A DNA stretch of 47,084 nt from Microbacteriaceae bacterium (GTDB lineage Bacteria; Actinomycetota; Actinomycetes; Actinomycetales; Microbacteriaceae): positions 1 through 47,084 of the forward strand of contig JAIXXG010000074.1 of assembly GCA_027490915.1 (NCBI GenBank), read 5' to 3'. Within the stretch, counting starts at the first letter, position 1. The number at the start of each line of letters is the position of its first letter. A program made the translations under genes and the position numbers. Shown one piece after another: positions 13,671 through 31,690 of the stretch. A model generated the notes under the pieces. The model worked only from the letters and a program-made list of their open reading frames with translations, was not told where the DNA came from and ran no database searches.

Positions 13671-15109
13671 TAGTCGCGGCCGACGTGCATGGCGCGCGCC
13701 GCATCCGTGATGCCGCCCGACAGCGAGGGGTACACCGAGTAGGCGCGCGCCAGCTGATCGACCGTGAGGCGGTGCTCGACGGCGAGGGCGACGGGCAGGA
13801 TGAGCTCGGAGGCGCGCGGGGCGACGATGACGCCGCCGATGACGGTGCCCGAGGTGCGGGCGGCGAAGAGCTTGATGAAGCCGTCGCTGACGCCCTGCAT
13901 CTTCGCGCGCGGGTTGGTCTCGAGCATGAGCTTGTGCACGACGCCGCGCGTCGCGCCCTCCTCGATCTGCTTCTGCGAGAAGCCGACGGTGGCGATCTCG
14001 GGCGCGGTGAAGATGTTCGACGTGACGTTGCGCAGGGTCAGCGGCGTGACGGCGTCGCCCATCGCGTGGTACACCGCGGTGCGCCCCTGCATCGAGGCGA
14101 CCGAGGCCAGCGGCAGCGAGTCGCTGCAGTCGCCGACCGCGTAGACGCTCGGCATCGAGGTGCGGGCCACCTTGTTGACGGCGATGTGGCCGGATGCGGT
14201 GACCTGCACCCCCGCATCCTCGAGCCCGATGCCCGCGGTGTTGGGGATCGAGCCGACGGCCATGAGGCAGTGCGAGCCCTCGATGACGCGCCCGTCGGCG
14301 AGGGTCACGACGACACCGTCGCCGCTGCGCACCACCGAGTCGGCGCGGCTCTTCGAGAGCACGGTCATGCCGTTGCGGCGGAACACCGTCTCGAGCACCT
14401 GGGCGGCATCGGCGTCCTCCCCCGGCAGCACCTGGTCGCGGCTCGACACGAGGGTCACCTGCGCGCCGAGCGCGCGGTAGGCGGAGGCGAACTCGGCACC
14501 CGTGACACCCGAGCCGACGACGATGAGGTGCTCGGGCACGGTGTCGAGGCGGTAGAGCTGGGTCCAGGTGAGGATGCGCTCGCCGTCGGGCTGCGCGCTC
14601 GGCAGCTCGCGCGGGCTCGCGCCGACGGCGACGATGACCGTGTCGGCGTCGCACTGGTCGAAGTCGGTGCGCTTCTTGCCCTGCCCGGTCGACACGACGA
14701 CGCGCTGCGGGCCGTCGAGGCGCCCCTCGCCGACGATGATGCGCACGCCGGCGTCGAGCAGCTGCTGGCGCATGTCGTCGCTCTGCTCCTGCGCGAGCCG
14801 CAGCACGCGCTTGTTGACCTGCGCGAGGTTGACGGCCAGCTCGGGCTTGACCGCGCGCCCGCTCTCGCCGCGCGCGAAGAACTGCACGCCGAGTTCGCCG
14901 GCGCCGGCGATCGCCCCGGCGGCCTCGGCCGTCGCGATGAGGGTCTTCGAGGGCACGACGTCGGTGAGCACGGCCGAGCCGCCCACGCCGGCGCGCTCGA
15001 CGAGCGTCACCTCGGCCCCCAGCTGCGCTCCGGCGAGCGCGGCCTCGTAGCCGCCCGGGCCGCCGCCGAGAACGGCGATGCGCTGCTTGCGGTCGAAGAG
15101 TGTCGTCAT
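13670..15109 (-). CDS. lpdA: LpdA-type NAD(P)H-quinone dehydrogenase (disulfide-less flavoprotein)
   Basis: This 479-residue flavoprotein disulfide reductase homologue has the FAD motif IAVLGGGPGGYEAALAGAQ at residues 11-29, an NAD motif LIVVGSGVTGAEFASAYRALG, the FAD-contacting YAVGDCSDSLPLASVA, and a C-terminal dimerisation domain with AYSVYPSLSG. The usual redox CxxxxC after GG is replaced: Ala46 and Val51 occupy the cysteine positions in GGSAVLTDVVPSK. M. tuberculosis LpdA (Rv3303c) is likewise without the disulfide and reduces quinones rather than lipoamide, so I assign that role by homology. ATG 15109 has GGGAGG 9 nt upstream. It diverges from deoD. Confidence 0.88.
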   Translation of the reverse strand: MTTLFDRKQRIAVLGGGPGGYEAALAGAQLGAEVTLVERAGVGGSAVLTDVVPSKTLIATAEAAGAIAGAGELGVQFFARGESGRAVKPELAVNLAQVNKRVLRLAQEQSDDMRQQLLDAGVRIIVGEGRLDGPQRVVVSTGQGKKRTDFDQCDADTVIVAVGASPRELPSAQPDGERILTWTQLYRLDTVPEHLIVVGSGVTGAEFASAYRALGAQVTLVSSRDQVLPGEDADAAQVLETVFRRNGMTVLSKSRADSVVRSGDGVVVTLADGRVIEGSHCLMAVGSIPNTAGIGLEDAGVQVTASGHIAVNKVARTSMPSVYAVGDCSDSLPLASVASMQGRTAVYHAMGDAVTPLTLRNVTSNIFTAPEIATVGFSQKQIEEGATRGVVHKLMLETNPRAKMQGVSDGFIKLFAARTSGTVIGGVIVAPRASELILPVALAVEHRLTVDQLARAYSVYPSLSGGITDAARAMHVGRD

Positions 15110-15175
15110 GCTCACCATCCTCCCGCATCCAGGCCCTCATTCGAGCAGTCAGCGGCGGCGCGAGGGGCGCGTCAG

Positions 15176-15181
15176 TAGGCT
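15176..15181 (+). promoter_or_regulatory. -10 box TAGGCT, leaderless promoter of deoD
   Basis: TAGGCT lies 7 nt before the ATG at 15189, in the 79-bp gap shared with the divergent lpdA gene. Confidence 0.6.
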
Positions 15182-15188
15182 GGCAGGC

Positions 15189-16022
15189 ATGTCCCACACC
15201 GCCGCGAATCCCCTCGACGACCCGCACGCCGACCCCTTCGCCGTCGCCGCTCAGGCGGCCGCGCAGCTCGCCGAGGCGACGGGGGTCGAGCGCCACGACA
15301 TCGCCCTCACCCTCGGCTCGGGCTGGGCGAAGGCCGCCGACCTCATCGGCGAGACCACGCACACCATCCCCGCCACCGACATCGCGGGCTTCAGCAAGCC
15401 CGCGCTCGAGGGCCACGTCGGCACCCTGCGCTCGATCCTGCTGCCGAGCGGCAAGCGTGCGCTCGTCATCGGCGCCCGCACCCACTACTACGAGAACCAC
15501 GGGGTGCGCCGGGTCGTGCACTCGGTGCGCACCGCGGCGGCGGCCGGCGCCTCCGTCATGATCCTCACCAACGGCGCGGGCGGCATCAAGCCGCACTGGA
15601 AGCCGGGCACGCCCGTGCTCATCAGCGACCACCTCAACCTGACGGCGAACTCGCCGTTGGAGGGCGCGACCTTCATCGACCTCACCGACCTGTACGCGCA
15701 GCGGCTGCGCGCCCTCGCCCACGAGGTCGACCCGAGCCTCGACGAGGGCGTGTACGTGCAGTTCCGCGGGCCGCACTACGAGACGCCCGCCGAGGTGCAG
15801 ATGGCGAAGGCCATGGGTGGCCACATCGTCGGCATGTCGACGGCCCTCGAGGCGATCGCCGCGCGCCAGGCGGGCATGGAGGTGCTGGGCCTCTCGCTCA
15901 TCACCAACCTCGCCGCGGGCATCTCGCCCGAGCCGCTCAGCCACGCCGAGGTCATCCAGGCGGGCAAGGATGCCGAACCGGTGATCAGCGCCCTGCTGGC
16001 CCGCATCGTCGCTGCACTCTGA
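15189..16022 (+). CDS. deoD: Purine-nucleoside phosphorylase
   Basis: This 277-residue protein is of the trimeric PNP class (about 270-290 residues). It cleaves purine (deoxy)nucleosides with phosphate to base and (deoxy)ribose-1-phosphate. Visible motifs are TLGSGWAKAADL near residue 40, GARTHYYENHG (phosphate and substrate loop), LTNGAGGIKPHWKPGTPVLISDHLNLT, FRGPHYETPAEVQMAK and GMSTALEAIAARQ, then LITNLAAGIS. The following phosphosugar mutase begins 27 nt later and may convert the ribose-1-phosphate released here. Start set by TAGGCT 7 nt upstream. Confidence 0.95.
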   Translation: MSHTAANPLDDPHADPFAVAAQAAAQLAEATGVERHDIALTLGSGWAKAADLIGETTHTIPATDIAGFSKPALEGHVGTLRSILLPSGKRALVIGARTHYYENHGVRRVVHSVRTAAAAGASVMILTNGAGGIKPHWKPGTPVLISDHLNLTANSPLEGATFIDLTDLYAQRLRALAHEVDPSLDEGVYVQFRGPHYETPAEVQMAKAMGGHIVGMSTALEAIAARQAGMEVLGLSLITNLAAGISPEPLSHAEVIQAGKDAEPVISALLARIVAAL

Positions 16023-16049
16023 TCACCATCGCGCTGTAGGGAGTCACTC

Positions 16050-17729
16050 ATGACCACTCTCGACCGGGCCAAGTCGTGGCTCGAGCAAGACCCCGACCCC
16101 GAGACGCGCGCCGAGCTCGAGGCGCTCATCCCGGCCGCCGAGGGCGGCGATGCGGCGGCGATGGATGCCCTCCGCGACCGCTTCGACACCCGCCTGACGT
16201 TCGGCACCGCGGGCCTGCGTGGTGAGCTCGGCGCGGGCTCGAACCGCATGAACCGGGTGCTCGTGGCCCAGGCGGCCACCGGATTCGCCCGCTGGCTGCT
16301 CGAGCGCGACGAGAACGCCAGCGTCGTCATCGGCTACGACGGCCGCGTCAACAGCGACGTGTTCGCGCGCGACTCGGCCGAGCTCATGGCCGGGGCGGGC
16401 GTGCGCGTCGTGCTGCTGCCGCGCGCGCTGCCGACGCCCGTGCTCGCCTTCGCGGTGCGGCACCTCGGCGTGAGTGCCGGCGTCATGGTGACGGCGAGCC
16501 ACAACCCGCCGCGCGACAACGGCTACAAGGTGTACCTGGGCGGCCGTGACGGCGGTTCGCAGATCGTCGCCCCGACCGACGAGGCGATCCACCAGGCGAT
16601 CCTCGCGGTGGCCGACACGAGCGTGATGGGCGAGCTGCCGCGATCGACGGCGTTCGAGCTCGCCGACGAGAGCGTCGTCGACGCCTACGTCGATCGCACG
16701 GCCGCCCTCGTCACCCGCACGGCCGAGTCGCCCGTGATCGACCCGGTGCGCTTCGTCTACACGGCGATGCACGGCGTCGGGTGGGAGGTCGCCCGGCGCA
16801 CGTTCGCCGCGGCGGGCCTCGGCGAGCCCACGGTCGTGGCCGAGCAGATCGAGCCCGACGGCACGTTCCCGACGGTGGCGTTCCCCAACCCCGAGGAGCC
16901 GGGCGCGATGGATCTGTCGTTCGCGACGGCCCGCGCGGCCGACGCCGAGCTCATCATCGCCAACGATCCCGATGCCGACCGCCTCGCGGTGGCGATCCCC
17001 GACCCCAGCACTCCCGAGGGCTGGCGCCGCCTGAGCGGCAACGAGGTCGGCGCGCTGCTCGGCTGGCGAGCCGCCGAGCGCCTGCAGCGCGAGGAGCGCC
17101 AGGCGAAGTTCGCCGCGTCGCTCGTCTCCTCCCCCGCTCTCGCGGCGGTCGCCGGCGCCTACGGGGTGAGCTACAGCGACACCCTCACGGGCTTCAAGTG
17201 GATCTCGCGCGTCGGCGGCCTCGCCTACGGCTACGAAGAGGCGCTCGGCTACCTCGTCGACCCCGAGAAGGTGCGCGACAAAGACGGCATCTCGGCCGCC
17301 GTCGACCTGCTCGCCCTCGCCGGCGAGCTCAAGGCCGCCGGCCGCACGCTCGCCGAGCACCAGCGCGACTTCGACGAGCGCTTCGGCGCGTTCGCGAGCG
17401 CCCAGGTCTCGCTGCGGGTCACCGACCTCAGCCGCATCGGCGCGATCATGGCGGCCCTGCGCGACAACCCGCCCAACGAGATCGGCGGCGTGCGCGTCAG
17501 CCAGGTCGACGACTTCTCGGGCGGCTTCGGGGTCTTCCCGCCGAGCGACATCCTGCGGTTCTGGATGCACGGCGGCGCCCGCGTCATCGTGCGGCCGAGC
17601 GGCACCGAGCCGAAGGTCAAGGTCTACATCGACGCGTCGAGCGACCAGGGCTCGGTCGACGAGCGCCGGGCCGCCGCGCAGGCCGAGGTCGCCGCGCTCG
17701 AGGCCGGCATGCGCCAGCTCATCGTCTGA
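16050..17729 (+). CDS. pmmB: Phospho-sugar mutase (PmmB/phosphopentomutase-like)
   Basis: This 559-residue alpha-D-phosphohexomutase superfamily enzyme carries GTAGLRGELGAGSNRMN near residue 50, the phosphoserine loop VTASHNPPRDNGYKVY near 148, the metal loop NDPDADRLAV near 307, the sugar-specificity segment DTLTGFKWI near 380, and the C-terminal phosphate-binding RPSGTEPKVKVY. Length fits the PGM2/PmmB branch, whose members act on phosphoglucose, phosphomannose or phosphopentoses. Being downstream of deoD with an AGGGAG ribosome site, it is probably co-transcribed and could interconvert ribose-1-phosphate and ribose-5-phosphate; substrate is inferred. Confidence 0.9.
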   Translation: MTTLDRAKSWLEQDPDPETRAELEALIPAAEGGDAAAMDALRDRFDTRLTFGTAGLRGELGAGSNRMNRVLVAQAATGFARWLLERDENASVVIGYDGRVNSDVFARDSAELMAGAGVRVVLLPRALPTPVLAFAVRHLGVSAGVMVTASHNPPRDNGYKVYLGGRDGGSQIVAPTDEAIHQAILAVADTSVMGELPRSTAFELADESVVDAYVDRTAALVTRTAESPVIDPVRFVYTAMHGVGWEVARRTFAAAGLGEPTVVAEQIEPDGTFPTVAFPNPEEPGAMDLSFATARAADAELIIANDPDADRLAVAIPDPSTPEGWRRLSGNEVGALLGWRAAERLQREERQAKFAASLVSSPALAAVAGAYGVSYSDTLTGFKWISRVGGLAYGYEEALGYLVDPEKVRDKDGISAAVDLLALAGELKAAGRTLAEHQRDFDERFGAFASAQVSLRVTDLSRIGAIMAALRDNPPNEIGGVRVSQVDDFSGGFGVFPPSDILRFWMHGGARVIVRPSGTEPKVKVYIDASSDQGSVDERRAAAQAEVAALEAGMRQLIV

Positions 17730-19730: not shown

Positions 19731-20003
19731 TCAGCCCAGCGCGGCCTCGAGCTTGCCGGCGAGCTCCTCGCCGTCGAAGTAGTTCTCGATCACGATGACG
19801 TCGGCGCGCGTCGCGCCGATCGCCTCGACGAACTCGGCGCTCGTCAGGATCACCTGGGCGTCGGCCGCCACACGCGCGACCGATCCGATGTCGGCGGCGA
19901 CGACGGTGGCCGAGAGGCCGAGCCGCTGCAGCGCCCGCTCGGCGTTGACCTTCAGGATGCCGCTCGTGCCGATGCCGGCCCCGCAGATCGTGACGATCTT
20001 CAC
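19731..20003 (-). CDS. PTS IIB component (ascorbate/lactose-type fold)
   Basis: This 90-residue, single-domain protein has the phosphocysteine loop near its N-terminus: VTICGAGIGTSGIL with Cys7. The pattern C-G-x-G-x-G-T-S is that of IIB proteins of the ascorbate (UlaB/SgaB) group. It should accept phosphate from the IIA protein encoded just upstream. It starts with GTG overlapping the IIA stop (GTGA). No membrane IIC gene follows, since the next gene is convergent, so the usual transporter partner is missing here. It may work with a IIC encoded elsewhere or in regulation. Confidence 0.85.
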   Translation of the reverse strand: MKIVTICGAGIGTSGILKVNAERALQRLGLSATVVAADIGSVARVAADAQVILTSAEFVEAIGATRADVIVIENYFDGEELAGKLEAALG

Positions 20004-20464
20004 GCGGGGGCCTCGGCGCCGGTGCCCGCACCGAGCAGGCGGCGCACCTCGTCGCGCGAGCCCGCCTCGGCGATCGCCGGGATGACCGCCGGGTTGTTGA
20101 AGGCGTTCGCGAGCTCGGCGACCGCGGCCAGGTGGCTGTCGGCCGCGGCACCGGCGAGCCCGATGACGACCCGCACCGGGTCGTTGTGCGCGTGGCCGAA
20201 CTCGACCGGCTCGGCCAGGGTGACGATCGACAGGCCGTCGCAGCGCACCTCGGGGCCGGGGCGCGCGTGGGCGAGAGCCAGGCCGGGTGCGATCACGATG
20301 TACGGGCCGTGCGCATCCACCATGCGGATCATCGCCTCGGTGTACTCGCCCGTCGTGCAGCCGCTGTCGACGAGCGCGTCGCCGGCGAGCTTGATGGCCT
20401 CGCGCCAGTCTGCCGCACGCGCGTGCAGCACGATGGCGCGATCGGCGAGGGCGGGCAGCGTCAC
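20000..20464 (-). CDS. PTS IIA component (mannitol/fructose/ascorbate type)
   Basis: This 154-residue IIA protein has its phosphorylatable histidine in IAPGLALAHARPG (His66), in the style of UlaC/SgaA. Other family positions are TGEYTEAMIRMV near residue 40, VTLAEPVEFGHAHNDPVRVVIGLAG near 85-110 and LANAFNNP. It would receive phosphate from HPr and hand it to the IIB protein that follows. The GTG at 20464 overlaps the adenosine deaminase stop (GTGA), and its own stop overlaps the IIB start, so PTS and nucleoside functions are translated as one unit, which is unusual. Confidence 0.86.
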   Translation of the reverse strand: MTLPALADRAIVLHARAADWREAIKLAGDALVDSGCTTGEYTEAMIRMVDAHGPYIVIAPGLALAHARPGPEVRCDGLSIVTLAEPVEFGHAHNDPVRVVIGLAGAAADSHLAAVAELANAFNNPAVIPAIAEAGSRDEVRRLLGAGTGAEAPA

Positions 20465-21579
20465 AGGGCAGCCTCGAAGCCGTCGATGATGGTGTCCATG
20501 AGCGCCTCGCGGTCCTCCACCGGCAGGAACGCCGACTGCGCCGCGTTGAGCTGCAGCGCGAGCAGGTCGTCGAGGTCGTAGCCGAAGGCCTCCGCGACGA
20601 GAGCGAGCTCGCGGCTCAGCGTGGTCGCGCTCATGAGGCGGTTGTCGGTGTTGACGGTGACGCGGAAGCCCAGCTGGTAGAAGAGGTCGAGCGGGTGGTC
20701 GACCATCGCGTCGCCCCAGGCGGCGATCGCGCCCGTCTGCAGGTTCGAGCTCGGGCTGGTCTCGAGGGTGATCTGGCGGTCTTTCACCCACTCGGCGATC
20801 GGGCCGAGCGTCGCGATCGTGCTGCCGCCCTCGTCGCTCAGGGTGATGTCCTCCAGCAGGCGCACCCCGTGGCCGAGGCGCAGCGCGCGACCGTCGAGCA
20901 GCGCGCCGCGGATCGACTCGATGCCGTCGGCCTCGCCGGCGTGCACCGTGGCCGGGAAGAAGCTCGCGGCGAGCAGGTCGAAGGCGTCTTTCAGGCGACC
21001 GGCGGGGAACCCCGCCTCCGCCCCGGCGATGTCGAAGCCGACCACGCCGCGGTCGCGGTGGCGCAGGGCGAGCTCGGCGATCTCGCGACCCCGATCGGCA
21101 TGGCGCATGGCGCTCACGAGCTGGCCGACACGGATGCGGTGGCCCGCGCCGCGCGCCTCCTCCACTCCGGCGTCCAGCCCCGCCTGCACGGCCTCCACCG
21201 TCTCGTCGAGGCTCAGCCCGCGCGTGAGGTGCTGCTCGGGAGCCCACCGGATCTCGCCCCACACGACGCCGTCGGCGGCGAGGTCGAGCACGAACTCGCG
21301 CGCGACCCGCTCGAGGCCCTCGCGCGTCTGCATGACGGCGGTGGTCACATCGAAGGTCTTCAGGTACTCGACGAGCGAGCCCGAGTCGCTCTTCTCGGCG
21401 AACCAGGCGCCGAGGCTCTCGGCGTCGGTCGCCGGCAGCTCGAGGCCGATCGCGTCGGCGAGCTCGATGATCGTCTGCGGCCGCAGGCCGCCGTCGAGGT
21501 GGTCGTGCAGCGACACCTTCGGCAGCGATTCGATCGCGATCTCGGTGCCGGGAAGGAGGTTCTGTGTCGCCGTCGTCAT
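20461..21579 (-). CDS. add: Adenosine deaminase
   Basis: This 372-residue member of the amidohydrolase-fold ADA family converts (deoxy)adenosine to (deoxy)inosine. The zinc and catalytic motifs are LHDHLDGGLRP near residue 26 (HxH), HAGEADG near 220 (His and the general-acid Glu), LGHGVRL near 246, and VNTDNRLMS near 320. ATG 21579 is preferred over GTG 21585 because TAGGTT is 7 nt upstream of the ATG. The gene lies 10 nt after the IclR stop and has its own promoter but could also be read from the upstream operon. Inosine formed here can be used by the nucleoside hydrolase or by DeoD. Confidence 0.95.
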   Translation of the reverse strand: MTTATQNLLPGTEIAIESLPKVSLHDHLDGGLRPQTIIELADAIGLELPATDAESLGAWFAEKSDSGSLVEYLKTFDVTTAVMQTREGLERVAREFVLDLAADGVVWGEIRWAPEQHLTRGLSLDETVEAVQAGLDAGVEEARGAGHRIRVGQLVSAMRHADRGREIAELALRHRDRGVVGFDIAGAEAGFPAGRLKDAFDLLAASFFPATVHAGEADGIESIRGALLDGRALRLGHGVRLLEDITLSDEGGSTIATLGPIAEWVKDRQITLETSPSSNLQTGAIAAWGDAMVDHPLDLFYQLGFRVTVNTDNRLMSATTLSRELALVAEAFGYDLDDLLALQLNAAQSAFLPVEDREALMDTIIDGFEAAL

Positions 21580-21586
21580 ACCCACA

Positions 21587-21592
21587 AACCTA
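21587..21592 (-). promoter_or_regulatory. -10 box TAGGTT of add, containing the IclR stop codon
   Basis: TAGGTT on the minus strand lies 7 nt before the add ATG. Its first three bases are the TAG stop of the IclR gene. Confidence 0.5.
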
Positions 21593-22273
21593 CCGGTTCG
21601 TTATCTCGTCGTGACCACCGGGCGACCATCCGAGAGCGCGCTCGATCGCGCGCGCCGCGCGGCGCGCCTGCGCCACCACCTCGTCGTGCGCGACCGTGCT
21701 GAAGCTCGTGCTGACGTAGGGCACGGTCAGTGCCGCGACGATGGTGCCGTCGGCCCCGCGCACGCCCACCACCACGTCGGTGATGCCCGGCTGCAGCGCG
21801 TCGGCCCGCACCGCCTCGGCGGCGCCGCGCAGCACCTCCCCGGTCGCCGTCGCCTCGGCGTCGAACAGCGCCCCGACCCGCACGCGGTACCCGAAGTCGG
21901 CGGGCGACTCGACCTGCGCCACGACGCGCACCCGGTCGCCGTCGAGCACCGCGAGGTTGCAGCTCTGCCGCACCCGGTCGGCCAGCTCATGCATCACCGG
22001 CAGGGCGGCCGCGCGCAGGCCCCGCAGCGGCTCATGCCGGTGGGCGAGGTCGAACAGGCGCGTGGCGAGCAGGTAGCCGCCGCCGCGCTCGCGCACGACG
22101 AACCCGCGCCGCTCGAGCGTCGCGAGCACGCGGAAGAGCTGCCCCACACTGCGGCCGGTCGCCTCGGCGACCTGCGACTGCGTGAGCGGCTCCGGGCTCT
22201 CGGCGAGCAGTTCGAGCACGTCGAGGGCCTTCTCGACCGCGGGCGAGCGGTAGTCGGGCCCCGGGGAGCTCAT
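21590..22273 (-). CDS. IclR-family transcriptional regulator
   Basis: This 227-residue protein has an N-terminal winged helix (residues about 10-75: AVEKALDVLELLAES, LTQSQVAEATGRSVGQLFRVLATLERRGFVVR). The IclR effector domain follows, with LFDLAHRHEPLRGLRAAALPVM, SCNLAVLDGDRVRVVAQVE and a small-molecule pocket near ATATGEVLR. IclR proteins usually control neighbouring catabolic genes. The start overlaps the stop of the SAHH-like gene (ATGA), so the regulator belongs to the operon it probably controls. A candidate binding region is the AT-rich gap at 23511-23550. The effector is probably a nucleoside or base, which is inference. Confidence 0.9.
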   Translation of the reverse strand: MSSPGPDYRSPAVEKALDVLELLAESPEPLTQSQVAEATGRSVGQLFRVLATLERRGFVVRERGGGYLLATRLFDLAHRHEPLRGLRAAALPVMHELADRVRQSCNLAVLDGDRVRVVAQVESPADFGYRVRVGALFDAEATATGEVLRGAAEAVRADALQPGITDVVVGVRGADGTIVAALTVPYVSTSFSTVAHDEVVAQARRAARAIERALGWSPGGHDEITNR

Positions 22274-23499
22274 CGGTGCGCGCCCATGGCGGCGAGCATC
22301 CGCCGGGCGATGTGGCGCTCGATGTCGTCGGGAACCGGCTGCGCGCCCGCGACCAGCGCCGGGCCGCCGCGCACCACGCGCTCGAGCGAGAGCGCCTGCA
22401 GCAGAAACCCGAGATCCATGGCCTCGATCGAGTTGCCCTTGGGCTCGCGGCCCGCGAGGTTCATCATGCGCCCCTCGGCAAGCAGCACGACGTGCCGGCC
22501 GCCCGGCAGGTCGATGCGCTCGATCGCCTCGTCGAGAGTCGTGCGGCGCACGGCGCGGGCGTAGAGGGCGGGCACATCGATCTCCCACGGAAAGTGCCCG
22601 GCGTTGGCGAGCACCGCGCCGTCGGGCAGCGCGTCGACGACCTCGTCGGTCACGACATCGGCGTGGCCCGTGGCGGTGATGAGCACCTCGGCCCAGCTCG
22701 CGAGATCGACGATGCCGCCGACCCGGTAGCCGTCCCACGCGGCCTCGAAGGCCTTCAGGTCGTCGATCTCGGTGATGGCGACCTTCCCGCCCATCGCCCG
22801 CAGGTACTGCGCGATTCCCCGCCCGCACCAGCCGTAGCCGGCCACGACGAACCGTCGGCCGGCGATACGCAGGTTGGTGATGCGCATGATGCTCTCGACG
22901 ACCGACTGGCCGACCGAGTGCTTGTTCTCGCCGATGGCCTTCAGCAGCGAGTCGTTGATGACGATGATCGGAAACGGCAGGCGGCCGGCGAGCTCGGCCC
23001 GCAGGCGCAGGCCGCCGCTCGTGGTCTCCTCGGTGCCACCGATGATGCCGGTTGCGCCCGTCGGGTCGCCGGCGGCCACGGCCGCGTCGTCGATGCGCGC
23101 GGCAGCGAGAGCGGCGAGATCGGCGCCGTTGTCGAGCAGGATGCTGGGCCGGGCTGCATCGACGGCGGCGACGTTCGCGTGGTGGTCGTCGAGGGTGTCG
23201 GCGCGGCTGCCGTGCACGGTCATGCCCTGCTGCCGCAGCACCGCCACGATGTCGTCCTGCGTCGAGCCGTGGTTGCCCGTGGCGACGATCTCGGCCCCGC
23301 CGGCGTGCAGCGTCTCGAGCAGCACGGCCGTCTTCGGCTCGAGGTGCAGCGACATGCCGATGCGCTGCCCGGCGAAGGGCTGCTCGTCGGCGAACCGCGC
23401 CCGCACCTCGGCGAGCAGCGGCATGCGCGAGCGGATCCACTCGATGCGGGCGGCGCCGCGGGCGGCGAGGTCGGTCGGGTTGGAGCGGTGGGCACTCAT
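22270..23499 (-). CDS. Divergent S-adenosylhomocysteine hydrolase-like NAD-dependent enzyme
   Basis: This 409-residue protein aligns by eye along its length to S-adenosylhomocysteine hydrolase: LHLEPKTAVLLETL, NHGSTQDD, GGTEETTSGG, INDSLLKAIGENK, the NAD motif VVAGYGWCGRG, ANAGHFPWEIDVP and LLAEGRMMNLA. Retained catalytic residues are His52, Glu158, Lys187 and His302. Several others differ from the human enzyme (numbering from memory): Thr57 to Glu54, Glu59 to Lys56, Asp131 to Asn124, Asp190 to Glu191, and the His353 loop reads KGNS. The C-terminal KPDHYRY tail is absent. Changes cluster at the adenine site, so it may act on another nucleoside thioether or other nucleoside. It is first in an operon with IclR, diverging from a nucleoside hydrolase. 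Confidence 0.8.
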   Translation of the reverse strand: MSAHRSNPTDLAARGAARIEWIRSRMPLLAEVRARFADEQPFAGQRIGMSLHLEPKTAVLLETLHAGGAEIVATGNHGSTQDDIVAVLRQQGMTVHGSRADTLDDHHANVAAVDAARPSILLDNGADLAALAAARIDDAAVAAGDPTGATGIIGGTEETTSGGLRLRAELAGRLPFPIIVINDSLLKAIGENKHSVGQSVVESIMRITNLRIAGRRFVVAGYGWCGRGIAQYLRAMGGKVAITEIDDLKAFEAAWDGYRVGGIVDLASWAEVLITATGHADVVTDEVVDALPDGAVLANAGHFPWEIDVPALYARAVRRTTLDEAIERIDLPGGRHVVLLAEGRMMNLAGREPKGNSIEAMDLGFLLQALSLERVVRGGPALVAGAQPVPDDIERHIARRMLAAMGAHR

Positions 23500-23505
23500 G
23501 GCCAG

Positions 23506-23511
23506 ACTCTA
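23506..23511 (-). promoter_or_regulatory. -10 box TAGAGT of the SAHH-like gene
   Basis: TAGAGT on the minus strand is 6 nt before the ATG at 23499, a leaderless layout. Confidence 0.6.
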
Positions 23512-23514
23512 CAC

Positions 23515-23541
23515 ATGCGCAACTCGTTTTCATATATGCAT
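23515..23541. promoter_or_regulatory. Candidate operator between the SAHH-like and nucleoside hydrolase genes
   Basis: This 27-bp block is bounded by ATGC and GCAT, contains the palindrome CATATATG (23531-23538) and a TTTT run, and is far more AT-rich than anything nearby. It lies between two divergent -10 boxes, where one bound regulator (perhaps the IclR protein) could control both genes. Confidence 0.4.
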
Positions 23542-23549
23542 CTCACCGG

Positions 23550-23555
23550 TAGACT
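23550..23555 (+). promoter_or_regulatory. -10 box TAGACT of the nucleoside hydrolase gene
   Basis: TAGACT is 6 nt before the ATG at 23562, a leaderless layout. It faces the SAHH-like promoter across the AT-rich block. Confidence 0.6.
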
Positions 23556-23561
23556 CGCCGC

Positions 23562-24520
23562 ATGACGACCACCCCCGCGCCCGAGAAGATCATCCTCGAC
23601 TGCGACCCCGGCCACGACGACGCCGTCGCGATGCTGCTCGCCCACGGCTCGCCGGCCATCGACCTGCTCGCCGTCACGACGGTCATGGGCAACCAGACCA
23701 TCGAGAAGGTCACGCGCAACGCGCTCTCGGTCGCGCGCGTCATCGGCATGGATGCGGTGCCCATCGCCCGCGGAGCCCACCGGCCCCTCGTGCGCCGGGT
23801 CGAGACGGCCCCGGACATCCACGGCGAGTCGGGCCTCGACGGGCCCGTGCTGCCCGAGCCGGTCGTCGAGCTCGACCCGCGCCACGCGGTCGACCTCATC
23901 ATCGACACCGTCATGAGCCACCCGCCGAAGACCGTGTCGCTCGTGCCGACCGGGGCCCTCACCAACATCGCGCTCGCGGTTCGGAAGGAGCCGCGCCTCG
24001 CCGAGCGCGTCAAGCAAGTCGTGCTGATGGGCGGCGGCGTGCACGTCGGCAACTGGAGTGCCGTCGCCGAGTTCAACATCATCATCGACCCCGAGGCGGC
24101 GCACATCGTCTTCAACGAGCCCTGGCCGCTGACGATGATCGGGCTCGATGCCACGCACCGGGCGCTCGCGACCGATGAGGTCGCCGCGCGCATCGCCGCC
24201 GTCGGCACCGCGCCCGCCCGCTTCGTCGGCGAGCTGCTCGCGTTCTTCGCCCACTCGTATAAAGACGCGCAGGGCTTCGACCACCCGCCCGTGCACGACC
24301 CGTGCGCGGTCGCCTACCTCATCGACCCCACGCTGCTGCGCGTCGTGAAGGCCCCCCTCGACGTCGAGCTGACCGGCGGGCTCACGCTCGGCATGACCGT
24401 GGCCGATCTGCGCGGCCCCGCCCCCGAGGGATGCACGACGCAGGTCGCCCTCGACATCGACAACGACCGCTTCTGGGGTCTGGTGGTCGATGCGCTCGAG
24501 CGCATCGGCGCGGTGGAGGT

Positions 24521-24524
<4 letters not shown>
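23562..24524 (+). CDS. Inosine-uridine-type nucleoside hydrolase
   Basis: This 320-residue protein has the calcium-binding signature ILDCDPGHDDAVAM near residue 10, with VTTVMGNQTIEKVTRNAL following. LVPTGALTNIALAV near 130, MGGGVHVGNWSAVAEFNIIIDPEAAHIVF near 160-190 and the catalytic-site HDPCAVAYLID near 245 complete the family pattern. It hydrolyses ribonucleosides to base and ribose without phosphate; whether purine or pyrimidine is preferred is not visible. It is transcribed away from the SAHH-like/IclR operon and ends against deoA, the two stop codons sharing one CTAG. Confidence 0.93.
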
Positions 24525-25812
<1,288 letters not shown>

Positions 25813-25816
<4 letters not shown>

Positions 25817-26214
25817 GAGTGGTACTCCTCCAGGGTGCGCGGCCCGAACGCGTCGGGCAGCACCTCATCGATGGTCTTGATGCCCGATACGGTCTCGAGC
25901 AGCATGCCCTCGGCCGAGTGCTCGAAGAGCAGCTGCCGGCACCGTCCGCAGGGCATGAGCGCGCCGCCATTGCCGTCGACGCACGTGAAGGCCACGAGCT
26001 TGCCGCCGCCCGTCATGTGCAGCGTCGACACGAGCGCGCACTCGGCGCACAGCGTGAGCCCGTAGGAGGCGTTCTCGACGTTGCAGCCCGCGATCACCCG
26101 CCCGTCATCGACGATCGCGGCAACCCCGACCGGGAAGTTCGAGTACGGCACGTAGGCGTGCGACATCGCGTCGAGCGCGACCGCGCGCAGGGCATCCCAG
26201 TCGATATCGCTCAT
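25813..26214 (-). CDS. cdd: Cytidine deaminase
   Basis: This 133-residue homotetrameric-type enzyme deaminates cytidine or deoxycytidine to the uridine form. The zinc site is plain: CAECALV near residue 55 with the catalytic Glu, and PCGRCRQLL near 90. The substrate loop NFPVGVAAIV and GCNVENASYG are also present. ATG 26214 gives the standard length and lies 11 nt after the stop of the second permease gene. The product can be passed directly to DeoA, encoded in the overlapping downstream gene. Confidence 0.95.
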
Positions 26215-26225: not shown

Positions 26226-27512
26226 TCACGACTTGACGTAGGGCTTGCCCGAGGCCGCCGGCGGCCGCGAGAAGCCGACCAGGCCGGCGACCGCGAAGAT
26301 CGTGACCAGGTAGGGCAGCATCAGCATGAACTCGCTCGGCACGGGCGAGCCGACGATCGACAGCGTCGACTGCAGGTTCGTCGCGAAGCCGAAGAGCAGG
26401 GCCGCGAGGGTCGCCTTGATCGGGTTCCACTGGCCGAAGATCACCGCGGCAAGGGCGATGAAGCCCGCGCCGTTCGTCATCTCCTTGGTGAACGAGCCGA
26501 TCGCCACGAGCGTGAAGAACGCCCCGCCGCCGCCGACGATCACGCCGGCGAGGAGCACGTTCCAGAACCGGGTGCGGGCCACCTTGATGCCGACCGTGTC
26601 GGCGGCCTTCGGGTGCTCACCGACCGCGCGCAGGCGCAGGCCCCAGCGGGTCTTGAAGAGCCCGAACCAGACCAGGGGCACGAGCGCGAACATCGCGTAG
26701 ACGATGATCGACTGGTTGAAGATGATCGGCCCGATGACGGGGATGTCGCTCAGCAGCGGGATCGCGACCCGCTCGAACCGCTCGGGGTTGTTGAACGTGT
26801 CGGGGTCGCCGGTCATGACCGTCGAGTAGAGGAAGCTCGTCAGGCCGATGACGAGCACGTTGAGCACGACACCGACGATGACCTGGTCGACCAGGTACTT
26901 GATGGCGAAGGCGGCGAGCACGGCCGAGACCGCGGCGCCCGCCACCATCGCGGCGATGAGCCCGGCCCACGCCGAGCCGGTCGCGGTCGCGACGAGCGCG
27001 GCCGTGAAGGCCCCGGCGAGCAGCTGGCCCTCGATGGCGATGTTGACCACACCGACCCGCTCGCTGATGACGCCGCCGAGCGAGCCGAAGATGAGCGGGG
27101 TGCTCACCGTCAGCGCACCGGCCAGCAGGCCGACGAGCGGCACCGTCGAGCCCGCGGCGGCCCAGGTCAGGAACCCGACCAGGAACAGCACGGCGAAGAT
27201 CGTGGTGAGCCAGAGCGGCACCTTCTGGGCATTGCGCACCCGCAGGAAGGCGTACACCGCGATCGCGGCCATCAGCACGACCGTCACGATGCCCGTCGCA
27301 TCGGCGGGCAGCACGATCGACGGCAGCACGATCGCATCGTCGTCGTTGCTCAGGCGGTAGGTGGTGTCGCCGCCGCGCGCGAGCGCGATGAACAGCACCG
27401 CGCCGAGCACCGTGAAGACGGCGAACGCGATCGGCGCCTTCCAGCTGCGCACCACGAGGGGCGAGGGGGTGAGGCCCGAACCGGCCTCGCGGGTGGTCGT
27501 CACGACGCTCAC
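26226..27512 (-). CDS. Nucleoside ABC transporter permease 2
   Basis: This 428-residue permease of the BPD-transp-2 family (NupC/YufQ-like) has roughly ten membrane helices. The conserved region VNIAIEGQLLAGAFTAALVA near residue 175 is followed by RAVGEHPKAADTVGIKVARTRFWNVLLAGVIVG near 290-325, the pattern that couples such permeases to their ATPase. An extra N-terminal helix pair and a polar loop precede the core. It starts with GTG, overlapping the permease 1 stop (GTGA). It should pair with permease 1 and the ATPase at 28822-30336 to import nucleosides. Confidence 0.9.
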   Translation of the reverse strand: MSVVTTTREAGSGLTPSPLVVRSWKAPIAFAVFTVLGAVLFIALARGGDTTYRLSNDDDAIVLPSIVLPADATGIVTVVLMAAIAVYAFLRVRNAQKVPLWLTTIFAVLFLVGFLTWAAAGSTVPLVGLLAGALTVSTPLIFGSLGGVISERVGVVNIAIEGQLLAGAFTAALVATATGSAWAGLIAAMVAGAAVSAVLAAFAIKYLVDQVIVGVVLNVLVIGLTSFLYSTVMTGDPDTFNNPERFERVAIPLLSDIPVIGPIIFNQSIIVYAMFALVPLVWFGLFKTRWGLRLRAVGEHPKAADTVGIKVARTRFWNVLLAGVIVGGGGAFFTLVAIGSFTKEMTNGAGFIALAAVIFGQWNPIKATLAALLFGFATNLQSTLSIVGSPVPSEFMLMLPYLVTIFAVAGLVGFSRPPAASGKPYVKS

Positions 27513-28825
27513 TTGGTCACCTCCGCCTTCGCGGCAGTCTTCGGGGTTCGCCACTGGAACAGCGGGTCAGGGGTGGGCAGGCGGAAGATCGCCCGCACCA
27601 GCGGCGGCGCGGCGATGAAGAGCACGATGAACGACTGCACCACCAGCACGATGTCGACCGGGATGCCCTCCGAGGCCTGCATCGTGTAGCTGCCGGCCTT
27701 CAGCCCGCCGAACAGGATGCCCGCGAAGAACACGCCGACGGGCTTCGAGCGCCCGAGCAGGGCGACCGTGATGGCATCGAAGCCGATGCCCGCATCCAGC
27801 CCCGCGGCGAAGCCGCCGGTGAAGTTGCCGAGCACCTGGTAGACACCGGCGAGACCGACGAGCGCGCCCGCGATGAGCATCACCTGCACGTAGACGCGCT
27901 CGACCTTGATGCCGGCGACGCGCGCCGCGTTCGGGTTCTCACCGACGGCCCGGAACCGGAAGCCCATGGCCGAGCGGTTGAGCAGGTACCAGACGTAGAT
28001 CGTCGCGACGATCACCAGGATGAACCCGAGGTTGAGGTTGTACTGATCGCCGAGGAGCGCCGGGAACTGCGCGCTCTCGAGGATCGGGCCGCTCTTGGGG
28101 TTGTTCTGGTCGGGTGCCTGCAGCGCGCCGGGGGTGCGCAGCAGGAACGACACGAGGTAGAAGGCGATGTAGTTGAGCATGATCGTGACGATCACCTCGT
28201 GCGCACCGGTGCGGGCCTTGAGCAGACCGACGAGACCGCCCCACAGTGCCCCGCCGATCAGGCCGACGATGAGGGCGACGACGAGGTGCAGCACCGGCGG
28301 CATCGGGATGTACGCCCCGACGTAGCCGGCGGCGGCCGCCGCGATGAGCATCTGGCCGCGACCACCGATGTTGAACAGGCCGACGCGGAAGGCGAGGGCC
28401 ACACCGAGGCCGGCCGCGATGAGCGGGGTCGCGTTGGCGAGCGTCTCGGTGAGCGGCCGGATCGCGACGGCGAAGTCGTCGGCGCGGAGGTAGTTGAACA
28501 CCGAGCCGCGGAACAGGGCCGAGTAGGCGCCGGCCACGGCGTCCCACATCGCCTGCAGCATGTCGGTGGGCCGCGAGAAGAAGTAGGCGCTCGTCTGCGC
28601 CACCGCCTCGTCGGTCAGCACGATCAGGATGCCGCCGAAGATCAGGGCCAGCAGCACGGCGAACACCGAGATCGCGGCGCTGCCGCCGAAGATCTCCTTG
28701 ATGATCTGGTTGCTGCGGGGCACCGGCGGCTCAGCCGTGTCGCGGCCGGTCTCGTGCGCTACGACCTGCTGGTGCACGGCCTCGGCCGTCTGCTCCGCGG
28801 TCGGCTTCTTGGTCTCGTCGGTCAC
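27509..28825 (-). CDS. Nucleoside ABC transporter permease 1
   Basis: This 438-residue permease of the same family as its downstream partner has a 45-residue polar N-terminus followed by about ten helices. Key motifs are FNIGGRGQMLIAAAAAGYVG near residue 165, GAHEVIVTIMLNYIAFYLVSFLL near 225, and RFRAVGENPNAARVAGIKVERVYVQVMLIAGALVG near 310-345. The GTG at 28825 overlaps the ATPase stop, and its own stop overlaps permease 2. It forms half of the membrane channel of the BMP-type importer. Confidence 0.9.
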   Translation of the reverse strand: MTDETKKPTAEQTAEAVHQQVVAHETGRDTAEPPVPRSNQIIKEIFGGSAAISVFAVLLALIFGGILIVLTDEAVAQTSAYFFSRPTDMLQAMWDAVAGAYSALFRGSVFNYLRADDFAVAIRPLTETLANATPLIAAGLGVALAFRVGLFNIGGRGQMLIAAAAAGYVGAYIPMPPVLHLVVALIVGLIGGALWGGLVGLLKARTGAHEVIVTIMLNYIAFYLVSFLLRTPGALQAPDQNNPKSGPILESAQFPALLGDQYNLNLGFILVIVATIYVWYLLNRSAMGFRFRAVGENPNAARVAGIKVERVYVQVMLIAGALVGLAGVYQVLGNFTGGFAAGLDAGIGFDAITVALLGRSKPVGVFFAGILFGGLKAGSYTMQASEGIPVDIVLVVQSFIVLFIAAPPLVRAIFRLPTPDPLFQWRTPKTAAKAEVTK

Positions 28826-30336
28826 GCTGCCACCTCCGCCGGGGTCTCGCCGGCCATCATCAATCCGAGTACGTCGCGGGGGGTGTCGCCCGGCACGATG
28901 CCGACGATGCGCCCCCGGTACATGACCGCGATGCGGTCGGCGAGCGCCGCCACCTCGTCGAGCTCGGTCGAGACGACGATGACGGGGATGCCCGCATCGC
29001 GCGTCGCGACGATGCGCTTGTGCACGAACTCGATCGAGCCGACGTCGAGACCGCGCGTCGGCTGCGCGGCCACGAAGAGGGCGAGATCGCGGCTCAGCTC
29101 GCGCGCCAGGACGACCTTCTGCTGGTTGCCGCCCGAGAGCCGGCCCGCCTGCTGGGTGATGCCCTGGGTGCGCACGTCGAACTCCGACACGCGCTCCTCG
29201 GCGAAGCGGGCGAGCTCCTCGAGCTGCAGGGTTCCCCACTTCACGAAGGGCTCGCCGGTCGAGCGGTCGAGCATGAGGTTCTCGGCGATCGTGAACGTGC
29301 CGACGAGGCCGTCCTCCGTGCGGTCCTCGGGCACGAAGCCGACGCCCGCGTCGAGCACCTGGCGGGTGCTGTCGCCGACCAGCTCGTTGCCCTCGAGCAC
29401 GATCGAGCCGTGCACGCGCGACTGCAGCCCCATGATGGCCTCGGTGAGCTCGGTCTGGCCGTTGCCCTGCACGCCGGCGATGGCGAGGATCTCGCCGCGG
29501 TGCAGCGTGAACGACACGTGGTCGACGAGCACCTGGCCGCGGGGGTCGGTCACGACGAGGTCCTGCACGACGAGCGAGGGGTCGCCCGGCTGCGCGGGAG
29601 CCTTGTCGACGGTGAGCTCGACCGCGCGGCCGACCATGAGCGAGGCCATCTCGGCGTTCGTCGCGGTGGGCTCGGCCTCGCCCACGACCTTGCCGAGCCG
29701 GATGACGGTGATGCGGTCGGCGACCTCGCGCACCTCGCGCAGCTTGTGGGTGATGAAGACGATCGAGGTGCCCTCGTCGCGCAGCTGGCGCATGATGCCC
29801 ATGAGCTCGTCGGTCTCCTGCGGCGTGAGCACCGCGGTGGGCTCGTCGAAGACGAGCACGCTCGCGTCGCGCGACAGGGCCTTGATGATCTCGACCCGCT
29901 GCTGCACGCCGACGGGGAGGTCTTCGATGAGGGCGTCGGGGTCGATATCGAAGCCGAAGCGGCCCGAGATCTCGCGCACCATCGCGCGCGCTGCTTCGAG
30001 GTCGAGCAGGCCGCCCGCCTTCGTCTGCTCGTGGCCGAGCATGACGTTCTCGGCGACGGTGAAGACCGGGATGAGCATGAAGTGCTGGTGCACCATGCCG
30101 ATGCCGGCGTTCATCGCATCGCCCGGCCCGGCGAAGTGCTGCACGACATCGTCGAGCAGGATCTCGCCCTCGTCGGCCTGGTAGAGGCCGTAGAGCACGT
30201 TCATGAGCGTGCTCTTGCCGGCGCCGTTCTCGCCGAGGAGGCAGTGGATCTCTCCCGGCTCGACGACGAGGTCGATGTGATCGTTGGCGGTCAGCGCTCC
30301 GAAGCGCTTGGTGATGCCGCGAAGCTCGAGCTTCAT
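28822..30336 (-). CDS. Nucleoside ABC transporter ATPase (two ABC domains)
   Basis: This 504-residue protein has two fused ABC domains, as in NupA/RbsA/YufO. The first has Walker A GENGAGKST near residue 37, a signature-like LPVGVQQRVEIIKAL and Walker B VLVFDEPTAVLTPQE. The second has a degenerate Walker A (GVQGNGQTEL), an intact signature LSGGNQQKVVLAREL and Walker B LFVAAQPTRGLDVGS. One weak ATP site is normal for this family. The ATG at 30336 follows GAAGGCCAAGGAGC. It drives uptake with the two permeases downstream and the lipoprotein upstream, from which it is separated by a strong hairpin. Confidence 0.93.
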   Translation of the reverse strand: MKLELRGITKRFGALTANDHIDLVVEPGEIHCLLGENGAGKSTLMNVLYGLYQADEGEILLDDVVQHFAGPGDAMNAGIGMVHQHFMLIPVFTVAENVMLGHEQTKAGGLLDLEAARAMVREISGRFGFDIDPDALIEDLPVGVQQRVEIIKALSRDASVLVFDEPTAVLTPQETDELMGIMRQLRDEGTSIVFITHKLREVREVADRITVIRLGKVVGEAEPTATNAEMASLMVGRAVELTVDKAPAQPGDPSLVVQDLVVTDPRGQVLVDHVSFTLHRGEILAIAGVQGNGQTELTEAIMGLQSRVHGSIVLEGNELVGDSTRQVLDAGVGFVPEDRTEDGLVGTFTIAENLMLDRSTGEPFVKWGTLQLEELARFAEERVSEFDVRTQGITQQAGRLSGGNQQKVVLARELSRDLALFVAAQPTRGLDVGSIEFVHKRIVATRDAGIPVIVVSTELDEVAALADRIAVMYRGRIVGIVPGDTPRDVLGLMMAGETPAEVAA

Positions 30337-30438
30337 GCTCCTTGGCCTTCCTGCGCCGGTGTCAGGGGCGGCGCGGTATCGGATGCGGAATGCGGCGCAC
30401 GCGCGAGGCCGAGGCGACGGCGGTGTGCTCGTGTCACC

Positions 30439-30444
30439 ACTGTA
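30439..30444 (-). promoter_or_regulatory. Possible internal promoter before the ATPase gene
   Basis: TACAGT on the minus strand lies between the hairpin at 30515-30560 and the ATPase start, giving a leader near 95 nt. No -35 is clear. It could supply the transporter genes independently of the lipoprotein gene. Confidence 0.3.
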
Positions 30445-30514
30445 GGGGAGAGCCGGGGGGCGAATCTGAGCAGAAACCTGCGCATCTGAGCACACGGGCC
30501 GTGAGCGCGAGGAT

Positions 30515-30560
30515 GCCCGGAAACGGGCCGGGGGAGGCCAGCAGCGCTGGCCTCCCCCGG
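30515..30560 (-). terminator. Tandem hairpins after the lipoprotein gene
   Basis: A perfect 15-bp stem (30528-30542 with 30546-30560, 3-base loop) begins 16 nt past the lipoprotein stop on the minus strand. A second GCCCG-GAAA-CGGGC hairpin abuts it at 30515-30528. Located inside the transporter gene set, it probably ends most transcripts after the abundant binding protein. Confidence 0.8.
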
Positions 30561-30576
30561 ATGGAACCGGTGTTGC

Positions 30577-31656
30577 TTACTGACCGGGCGACGCCGGCGA
30601 GGTGACCTCGATCGAGCCGTCGATGATGCCGGCGATCAGGGCCTCGACCTCACCCGCGAGCTCCGCGTCGACAGCCGACTCGAAGTCGTGGAACGGGGCG
30701 ATGCCGACGCCGCCGTTCTCGAGCGTGCCGACGTACGGCGCCGAGTCGAAGCCGCCGGTCGCGGCGCCGGTGACGACGTCGTAGACAGCGGTCGAGATGT
30801 TCTTCAGCACCGAGGTGAGCACCAGGTCGGCGATGTCGGGGTCGGACACGAAGATGTCCTTGTCGACGCCCATGAGGGCGATCGAGCGGCCCGAGTCGCG
30901 GATGGCCTCGGCGGCGCTGAAGTAGATCGGGCCACCGACGGGCAGCAGCACGTCAGCGTTCTGGTCGATCAGGCCCTGGGCCGTGGTCAGCGCCTCGGTG
31001 CCGGGGGCGAAGCCACCGGTGAAGGCACCGGTCTGGCCGGCGAGGTCCCACCCGAGAGCCTGCACCGAGGTGCCCTTCTCCTGGTTGTAGTAGTCGACGC
31101 CCTGCACGAAGCCGTCCATGAAGATGGTGACGGGCGGGATCGGGATGCCACCGAAGGTGCCGACGACGCCGGTCTCCGAGTAGCTCGCGGCGACGTAGCC
31201 CGCGAGGAACGCGGCCTCGACCGTGTTGAACTGGATCGGCTTGACGTTCTCGGCGTCGATGAACTCGTCGATGATCGCGAAGTTGATCTCGGGGTTCGCG
31301 GCGGCGGCGTTGGTGGTCGCCTCGGCGAGGAGGAAGCCGACCGTGATGATCAGGTCGCAACCCTGGTCGACGAGCTGCTGCACGTTCGGCTCGTACGCGT
31401 TCTCGTCGGCCGACTCGACGGCGACGAACTCGACACCGAGCTCGCCCGCGGCCTGCTCGATGCCGTCGTAGGCGGCCTCGTTGAACGACTTGTCGTCCCA
31501 GCCACCGGCGTCGGAGACGATGCAGGGAAGGAAGTCGAGCGCCTCGGTCTCTTCCGGCGTCTCCTCGGGGGCTGCGGCGCAGCCGGCGAGCACGAGCGCG
31601 CTGGCGCCGAGCAGGGCAAGCCCGCCGAAGGCGCGCTTACGGGTAGTGGTGATCAC
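30577..31656 (-). CDS. BMP-family nucleoside-binding lipoprotein
   Basis: This 359-residue substrate-binding lipoprotein of the BmpA/PnrA family has a signal peptide ending in the lipobox LVLAGC (Cys near residue 26), then an acidic linker rich in Glu and Pro. The mature domain contains IVSDAGGWDDKSFNEAAYDGIEQA, TVGFLLAEAT, the hinge segments FNTVEAAFLAGYVAA and VGTFGGIPIPPVTIFMDGF, and the PVGGPIYFSAAEA ligand loop. It should capture nucleosides outside the membrane and deliver them to the ABC permeases. The GTG at 31656 has GGAGG 5 nt upstream, so unlike many genes here it has a true leader. Confidence 0.93.
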   Translation of the reverse strand: MITTTRKRAFGGLALLGASALVLAGCAAAPEETPEETEALDFLPCIVSDAGGWDDKSFNEAAYDGIEQAAGELGVEFVAVESADENAYEPNVQQLVDQGCDLIITVGFLLAEATTNAAAANPEINFAIIDEFIDAENVKPIQFNTVEAAFLAGYVAASYSETGVVGTFGGIPIPPVTIFMDGFVQGVDYYNQEKGTSVQALGWDLAGQTGAFTGGFAPGTEALTTAQGLIDQNADVLLPVGGPIYFSAAEAIRDSGRSIALMGVDKDIFVSDPDIADLVLTSVLKNISTAVYDVVTGAATGGFDSAPYVGTLENGGVGIAPFHDFESAVDAELAGEVEALIAGIIDGSIEVTSPASPGQ

Positions 31657-31690
31657 TGTGTCCTCCAAAATTGCTGCCCAGCAGGACGCT

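Follow-up and report, generated by a model that had tools for sequence, protein, structure and literature searches.

The stretch of DNA analysed here (the window, 47,084 nt) comprises positions 1 to 47,084 of contig JAIXXG010000074.1 from a Microbacteriaceae bacterium (assembly GCA_027490915.1). It contains a gene for a homologue of S-adenosylhomocysteine hydrolase (SAHH), hereinafter designated the SAHH-like gene, which is followed on the minus strand by genes for an IclR-family regulator, adenosine deaminase (add), and the phosphotransferase system (PTS) proteins IIA and IIB. A nucleoside hydrolase (NH) gene diverges from the SAHH-like gene across 62 bp. Three of the junctions (SAHH-like/IclR, add/IIA, and IIA/IIB) are 4-bp overlaps, and the IclR stop is separated from the add start by 10 nt (ATG) or 4 nt (GTG). 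Coordinates and Pfam matches agree with this layout as an earlier note on the window had described it.

Each of the six encoded proteins exceeds the cut-off of the expected Pfam family. In NCBIfam, the SAHH-like protein (NF004005), the adenosine deaminase, and the NH (UriH model NF052221, 498.3 versus 450 bits) score above a model cut-off, and IclR, IIA, and IIB exceed none. The adenosine deaminase is the sole PF00962 match in the genome. The locus is part of a nucleoside-catabolic island, with phosphorylases, a mutase, a cytidine deaminase, and an ABC transporter around it (Table 1), and the setting in nucleoside salvage that the earlier note proposed therefore stands. In the window IclR, the IclR_C profile is matched over only 64 of its 174 positions, and 45 called relatives have a median length of 256 aa versus 227 aa, so that part of the effector domain may be shortened in this protein.

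Table 1. Positions of the genes and the putative operator in the window
Feature	Position	Strand	Remarks
SAHH-like enzyme	22270-23499	-	409 aa; PF05221 and PF00670
IclR-family regulator	21590-22273	-	227 aa; HTH_IclR and IclR_C, both over Pfam cut-off
Adenosine deaminase (add)	20461-21585 (GTG start) or 20461-21579 (ATG start)	-	Pfam and NCBIfam
PTS IIA	20000-20464	-	PTS_EIIA_2 (PF00359); phospho-His kept (ALAHAR)
PTS IIB	19731-20003	-	PF02302; phospho-Cys kept
Nucleoside hydrolase (NH), UriH-type, divergent partner	23562-24524	+	Pfam; NF052221
Putative IclR operator ATATATGAAAACGAGTTGCGCATGTGTAG, near-palindromic	23509-23537	-	within the 62-bp SAHH-like/NH gap
Pyrimidine-nucleoside (thymidine) phosphorylase, context	24521-25816	-	profile match
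Cytidine deaminase, context	25813-26208	-	profile match
Nucleoside-type ABC transporter (two BPD_transp_2 permeases, ATPase, Bmp/PnrA binding protein), context	26226-31827	-	
PNP-family phosphorylase and phospho-sugar mutase, context	15078-17729	+	

A second SAHH and its active-site signature

The SAHH-like protein scores above the cut-off in both SAHH domains (PF05221, 85.6 bits; PF00670, 143 bits). It passes NF004005 (377 versus 275 bits) and misses the TIGR00936 equivalog (359.2 versus 497.6 bits). A canonical full-length SAHH with canonical motifs is encoded on another contig of the same 2.57-Mb genome (G000:C80:13039-14472), and a PF05221 search of the genome gives this protein 469.5 bits versus 70.7 bits for the SAHH-like gene. 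The SAHH-like gene is thus a paralogue. That it might be the only SAHH of the genome, which the earlier note had named, in combination with normal SAH hydrolysis, as an outcome fatal to its proposal, is ruled out.

Relatives were found in genome contigs (100 in total), and 80 loci were kept, to which the counts out of 80 below refer. Forty of these loci were submitted to a search for another SAHH; among the 39 genomes searched, 37 hold a second PF05221 match of at least 320 bits, judged canonical by score. The exceptions are G551, with a partial second match of 48 bits, and G568, a metagenome-assembled genome in which the family member stands alone. Three Mycetocola genomes (G573, G574, and G575) and Agrococcus sp. 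KRD186 (G578) have an extra weak SAHH-like match, about 30–36 bits per piece (PF05221), beyond the canonical-scoring copy and the family copy.

The window protein, the proteins of the 80 loci, and seven further members (three Vibrionaceae, two Rhizobiaceae, and two Actinomycetota) were aligned as 88 signature rows together with 31 canonical rows. A maximum-likelihood tree built from 44 rows places the signature rows together on one side of a branch with 100/98 support, which is present in 99% of 200 bootstrap trees. The clade occurs in Actinomycetota and Pseudomonadota. Among 396 sampled Actinomycetota genomes, members above the canonical score range are present only in the window's own genome, G210, and G208; canonical motifs were present in the 27 other loci fetched from this sample, and score was the only criterion for the matches left unfetched. 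In all 27 of these non-signature loci (L095-L121), the best match is an archaeal-like SAHH of about 414–437 aa that carries HxTxE but no long insert, in contrast to the window genome's own canonical SAHH, which is long. In two Vibrio records with a gene table, the product name is 'adenosylhomocysteinase'.

The roles of the active-site residues are taken from published enzymes. In the excerpt of PMC4647836 on mouse SAHH, Glu156 and Asp190 bind the 2'-OH, Thr157 and Lys186 bind the 3'-OH, and His55, Asp131, and His301 bind the 5'-OH, with Asp131 lying below the ring and serving C4'. Similarly, in the section of the review PMC13406329 on the lupin enzyme, Asp139 (the equivalent of Asp131) is the C4' base and a lysine is the 3'-OH base. 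In mammalian numbering, Asp131 is replaced by Asn (Asn124 in the window protein) and Asp190 by Glu (Glu191) in 88 of 88 signature rows, versus Asp at both positions in 31 of 31 canonical rows. His353 is replaced by Asn in 87 of the 88 (Asn356 in the window protein; Asp once), versus His in all 31 canonical rows. The description of the enzyme as altered in the earlier note is borne out by the Asn and Glu replacements.

Other residues are retained. Specifically, Lys187 (Lys186 in mammalian numbering), Asn192 (Asn191), Glu158 (Glu156), Thr159 (Thr157), His52 (His55), and His302 (His301) are each present in 88 of 88 rows. The HxExK motif is likewise present in all 88 (HLEPK in the window protein), and the adenine motif HxTxE(Q) is absent from the window protein. 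Because a canonical row, Paenibacillus L088, also has HxExK, this motif alone is no marker of the clade. A C-terminal hinge-loop insertion and Gly78 are each found in 85 of the signature rows, Trp305 after GHF is found in 81, and the window protein has a short C-terminus.

Because both Asp residues are replaced in every signature row, ordinary 5'-thioether hydrolysis is unlikely, and the thioether nucleoside suggested in the earlier note is a doubtful substrate, the residue that handles the C4' proton in 5'-thioether elimination being Asn throughout. The NAD-binding part of the enzyme is retained as well. The retained HxExK motif and 3'-oxidation residues suggest that the family can still bind a 6-oxo base and oxidise the 3'-OH but has lost the usual means of expelling the 5' group. 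In the excerpt of PMC10978960, HxExK enzymes prefer inosine substrates, and the free base is a side product in every set-up tested, which would put a 3'-keto/C2' route chemically at hand.

The clade resembles euryarchaeal and Thermotoga SAHH and S-inosylhomocysteine hydrolase (SIH; EC 3.13.1.9; PfuSAHH 7R37/7R38, MmaSAHH 7R3A) in its HxExK motif, domains, short C-terminus, 3'-oxidation residues, and absence of a 40-aa insert, but differs from them in the replacements of Asp131, Asp190, and His353, the hinge-loop insertion, Gly78, and Trp305. With canonical SAHH (AhcY, EC 3.3.1.1) the SAHH-like protein of the window shares PF05221/PF00670, a score above the NF004005 cut-off, the 3'-oxidation residues, and the equivalents of His55 and His301; unlike AhcY, it misses TIGR00936, lacks HxTxE(Q), and has lost the catalytic Asp. 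A precedent for another reaction on this fold is AgmF of angustmycin A biosynthesis, a dehydratase and SAHH homologue with bound NAD+. According to the excerpt of PMC8599513, D129 and D188 are both present in AgmF and essential to it (activity is lost in D129A and in D188A), whereas the SAHH-like clade lacks both Asp residues; AgmF also belongs to a biosynthetic cluster and not to nucleoside breakdown. Among openly licensed PMC papers, none was found on an adenosylhomocysteinase with nucleoside hydrolase, add, and ribokinase, with IclR, or as such an operon.

A Roseateles sp. XES5 plasmid (L125:5676-8188), excluded from the residue counts, carries two SAHH-like genes in tandem, as part of a same-strand series that also includes genes for an ABC transporter, an amidohydrolase, and a nucleoside hydrolase. 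In the second copy, V replaces the catalytic His of HxExK, GGG replaces GHF, and the Asp pair is kept. The tandem pair is another, separate redeployment of the SAHH fold beside a nucleoside hydrolase, and perhaps forms a heteromer.

The IclR cassette and the PTS pair

An IclR gene lies directly downstream of the SAHH-like gene in 72 of the 80 loci, and all five partner genes are present in 37. The order is thus not unique to this strain, the other outcome that the earlier note had held to be decisive against it. Of 81 upstream regions, 71 carry a 29-bp element, ATATATGAAA-N6-TTCATATATGnAA, at the SAHH-like promoter (above 8 bits; the best of 243 mononucleotide shuffles reached 4.7 bits), scored with a matrix trained on the same 81 regions, many of which come from close relatives; these counts include the Mesorhizobium, Kaistia, and Klenkia variants. 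The element and an adjacent IclR gene occur together in 69 cases, IclR only in three (Mycetocola L076 and L077, and Agromyces L047), the element only in one, and neither in seven (Fisher p 2.9e-7, relatedness ignored). The window has one site, and a genome-wide search returns this site and one 3-mismatch match, with one match for the reversed-pattern control. The co-occurrence with IclR and the position of the site in the divergent promoter gap indicate that IclR is probably a local regulator of the NH/SAHH-like pair. Judged by this conservation, the SAHH-like and IclR genes are a recurring two-gene cassette with its own putative operator. The earlier note's view that the system looks inducible is strengthened by a single conserved operator that spans the divergent NH and SAHH-like promoters and is tied to the neighbouring IclR gene.

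Nucleoside-breakdown genes recur beside the SAHH-like gene, as seen in gene calls of our own that are rough for the relatives' loci. An NH gene diverges from the SAHH-like gene within 700 bp in 47 of the 78 loci with enough upstream DNA. In Klenkia, the order is SAHH-like, IclR, PfkB kinase, and NH; in Paraburkholderia, it is NH, LacI, SAHH-like, MFS, and PfkB kinase; and a Vibrio nigripulchritudo plasmid has NH, SAHH-like, add, and ribokinase genes, with DeoR and a CNT nucleoside transporter. Because the NHs of these three are only 25–39% identical to each other and to the window NH, the SAHH-like/NH partnership may have been assembled more than once.

In a sample of 150 Microbacteriaceae genomes, the SAHH-like gene is present in 29 (31 matches, of which the 29 above 600 bits were counted and the other two, 429 and 411 bits, were taken as canonical by score) and an IIA match in 107, although an IIA match of less than about 50% identity may be a paralogue. 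In 21 of the 29 genomes, IIA and the SAHH-like gene are no more than 5 kb apart; in five, IIA lies on another contig or 128 kb away, and in three it is absent. Of the 121 genomes that have no SAHH-like gene, 81 have an IIA match. Both other same-genus genomes sampled have a mutase ... IIB-IIA-add / NH-phosphorylase-cytidine deaminase-ABC arrangement, with the cassette and the operator absent between add and NH. In G471, the cassette and operator lie at the far end of add-IIA-IIB, downstream of IIB, and G448 has add-IIA-IIB without the cassette and without an NH match. In five loci with enough flank, add is present with no IIA/IIB match; in G418 and G444, the 16 kb around the SAHH-like gene holds no other island gene. 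On these distributions, the PTS pair goes by descent with add and is a neighbour, not a partner, of the SAHH-like gene. The specific tie between the SAHH homologue and the PTS pair proposed in the earlier note is not supported, and the pair is rejected as a defining part of the system, because IIA is common without the SAHH-like gene and add-IIA-IIB is intact without the cassette in the same genus.

The phosphorylation sites of the pair are conserved, phospho-His in 42 of 42 related IIA and phospho-Cys in 41 of 41 related IIB proteins. IIA is the sole PF00359 (PTS_EIIA_2) match in the genome, and the genome's only EI and HPr matches lie in a single 1021-aa frame, Dak2-EIIA-man-HPr-EI (around G000:C4 29232-29945; L089:214-3279), which by its domains is a dihydroxyacetone-kinase-type PTS fusion. 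A genome search for an IIC permease gave no match to PF03611 and none to PF02378, which rules out an IIC of either family elsewhere in the genome; other IIC classes (e.g., PF03609 and PF13303) were not searched. Since neither IIC superfamily searched is represented in the genome, the PTS pair is probably regulatory; IIA and IIB are most simply read as a regulatory relay that is attached to adenosine deaminase. Brucella melitensis, in a title-level mention (PMC2937029), is said to have an incomplete PTS, a relay without a permease. The window genome is like such relays in having phospho-site PTS proteins without an IIC of the classes tested, and unlike them in that EI and HPr are in the Dak2 fusion and IIA and IIB follow adenosine deaminase. 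The coupling to carbon status that the earlier note assigned to the PTS proteins is thus possible, but these data do not link the relay to the SAHH-like enzyme.

Proposed reaction and its alternatives

The loss of a key catalytic residue in all relatives examined, together with the recurring nucleoside-breakdown neighbours, indicates that the enzyme probably carries out a different reaction on a nucleoside. We propose, with confidence that is evenly balanced, that it is an NAD-dependent nucleoside 3'-oxidoreductase that performs no 5'-elimination, takes a 6-oxopurine-like (hypoxanthine-type) nucleoside as its substrate, and feeds the NH under IclR control. Specifically, the enzyme would bind a ribonucleoside that resembles inosine (a 6-oxopurine or 4-oxopyrimidine) and carries a 2'/3'-diol, and bound NAD+ would oxidise the 3'-OH with no elimination of the 5' group. 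The 3'-ketone would then be used for 2'-side chemistry (C2' epimerisation, or base expulsion via C2' deprotonation), for which Glu at position 190 is a hypothetical candidate base, or the keto-nucleoside would simply be released. Adenosine deaminase would supply hypoxanthine nucleosides, and the NH, elsewhere joined by a PfkB kinase, would carry the product to ribose and ribose phosphate. IclR would probably be a repressor relieved by substrate or product, with one operator controlling both the NH gene and the SAHH-like operon. Here the cassette lies ahead of the older add-IIA-IIB operon, probably on a shared transcript, and the IIA/IIB relay without a known permease would belong to the older add unit. 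More tentatively, the protein may be a new enzyme type on the SAHH fold, in which the C4' base is lost and the 2'-side acid is lengthened: NAD-dependent and with a 3'-keto intermediate, it would work on the other side of the ribose, as a C2' epimerase for arabino-type nucleosides or as an oxidative nucleosidase for NH-resistant ones (e.g., 2'-O-methyl).

Several observations weigh against this proposal. Insertion of the cassette into a nucleoside island might by itself explain why an NH gene is adjacent. Mesorhizobium L054 has SAHH-like and IclR genes with a divergent SSF symporter and a cytidine-deaminase-like gene, and no NH match; in Agromyces, Leifsonia, Kaistia, and one Microbacterium locus, no homologue of the window nucleoside genes lies beside the SAHH-like gene; and the Vibrio fortis record has no annotated nucleoside-gene neighbour. 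On Rhizobium and Ensifer plasmids (L083:6769-10157 and L084:7980-10160), a 43–46% identical relative with the Asn/Glu signature is followed by a GFO/IDH/MocA-like oxidoreductase gene (called by Pfam for L083 and by eye for L084), and in L083 a LysR-family gene precedes the relative. No solved structure in the alignments shown bears the Asn/Glu signature. Rat D130N SAHH reportedly keeps about 0.7% of kcat, and an Asp-to-Asn change may thus keep weak hydrolase activity. The V. nigripulchritudo plasmid speaks against the PTS as a mere neighbour, as it carries an ascorbate-type PTS (IIA, IIC, and IIB), transaldolase, and transketolase at a distance of about 4 kb, on the strand opposite to the SAHH-like gene. 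Identity to the window proteins is 27% for the plasmid IIA and 29% for the plasmid IIB.

The chief rival, which we consider unlikely, is a 5'-substituted-inosine hydrolase of the SIH or methylthioinosine type, in which add would deaminate an adenosine thioether, the SAHH-like enzyme would eliminate the 5' group, and the NH would split the inosine. This reading is consistent with the hypoxanthine-type HxExK motif in all 88 rows and with the presence of inosine-preferring SAHHs among the closest solved relatives; add, NH, and ribokinase at the Vibrio locus, and NH with a PfkB kinase at two others, would also fit its route to ribose phosphate. It has to accommodate Asn for Asp131 and Glu for Asp190 in 88 of 88 rows, positions at which the equivalent alanine changes kill AgmF in the excerpt of PMC8599513. 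The same loss of the catalytic acid, with the tight pairing to a regulator in 72 of the 80 loci, could instead indicate a catalytically dead regulatory protein, a nucleoside or NAD sensor that partners either the canonical SAHH or IclR. Vertebrates offer a comparison in their SAHH-like IRBIT proteins. Such a role is improbable in our judgement, because Lys187, Asn192, His52, His302, Glu158, and Thr159 are all retained in 88 of 88 rows, the Asn and Glu substitutions are fixed rather than drifting, and no IclR gene lies directly downstream in eight of the 80 loci.

A further alternative holds that the operon functions as a single unit and that the SAHH-like pathway is gated, or phosphorylated, by the PTS pair. 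Same-strand order with 4-bp overlaps, a genome without an IIC of PF03611 or PF02378, the invariant phospho-His and phospho-Cys, IIA within 5 kb in 21 of the 29 genomes, and the ascorbate-type PTS on the Vibrio plasmid would all fit such a unit. We give it only a slim chance, because both other same-genus genomes sampled have add-IIA-IIB but no cassette, IIA matches occur in 81 of 121 genomes that have no SAHH-like gene, five loci have add and no IIA/IIB match, and the cassette is downstream of IIB in G471.

By sequence, the SAHH-like protein is a variant within an established fold and family, and there is a genuine chance that its reaction is new. Naming it by NF004005 would make it an adenosylhomocysteinase and so assign a SAH hydrolase to a locus that probably has none. 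The recurring association, SAHH-like with IclR and often beside an NH, is now separated from the positional one with the PTS pair. If the proposed 3'-oxidoreductase without 5'-elimination is true, two or three defined substitutions have redirected SAHH chemistry, and the fate of a 3'-keto nucleoside with C4' silenced becomes directly testable. It would also suggest that nucleoside breakdown has a branch not yet characterised, for which IclR and its operator would be a ready-made sensor.

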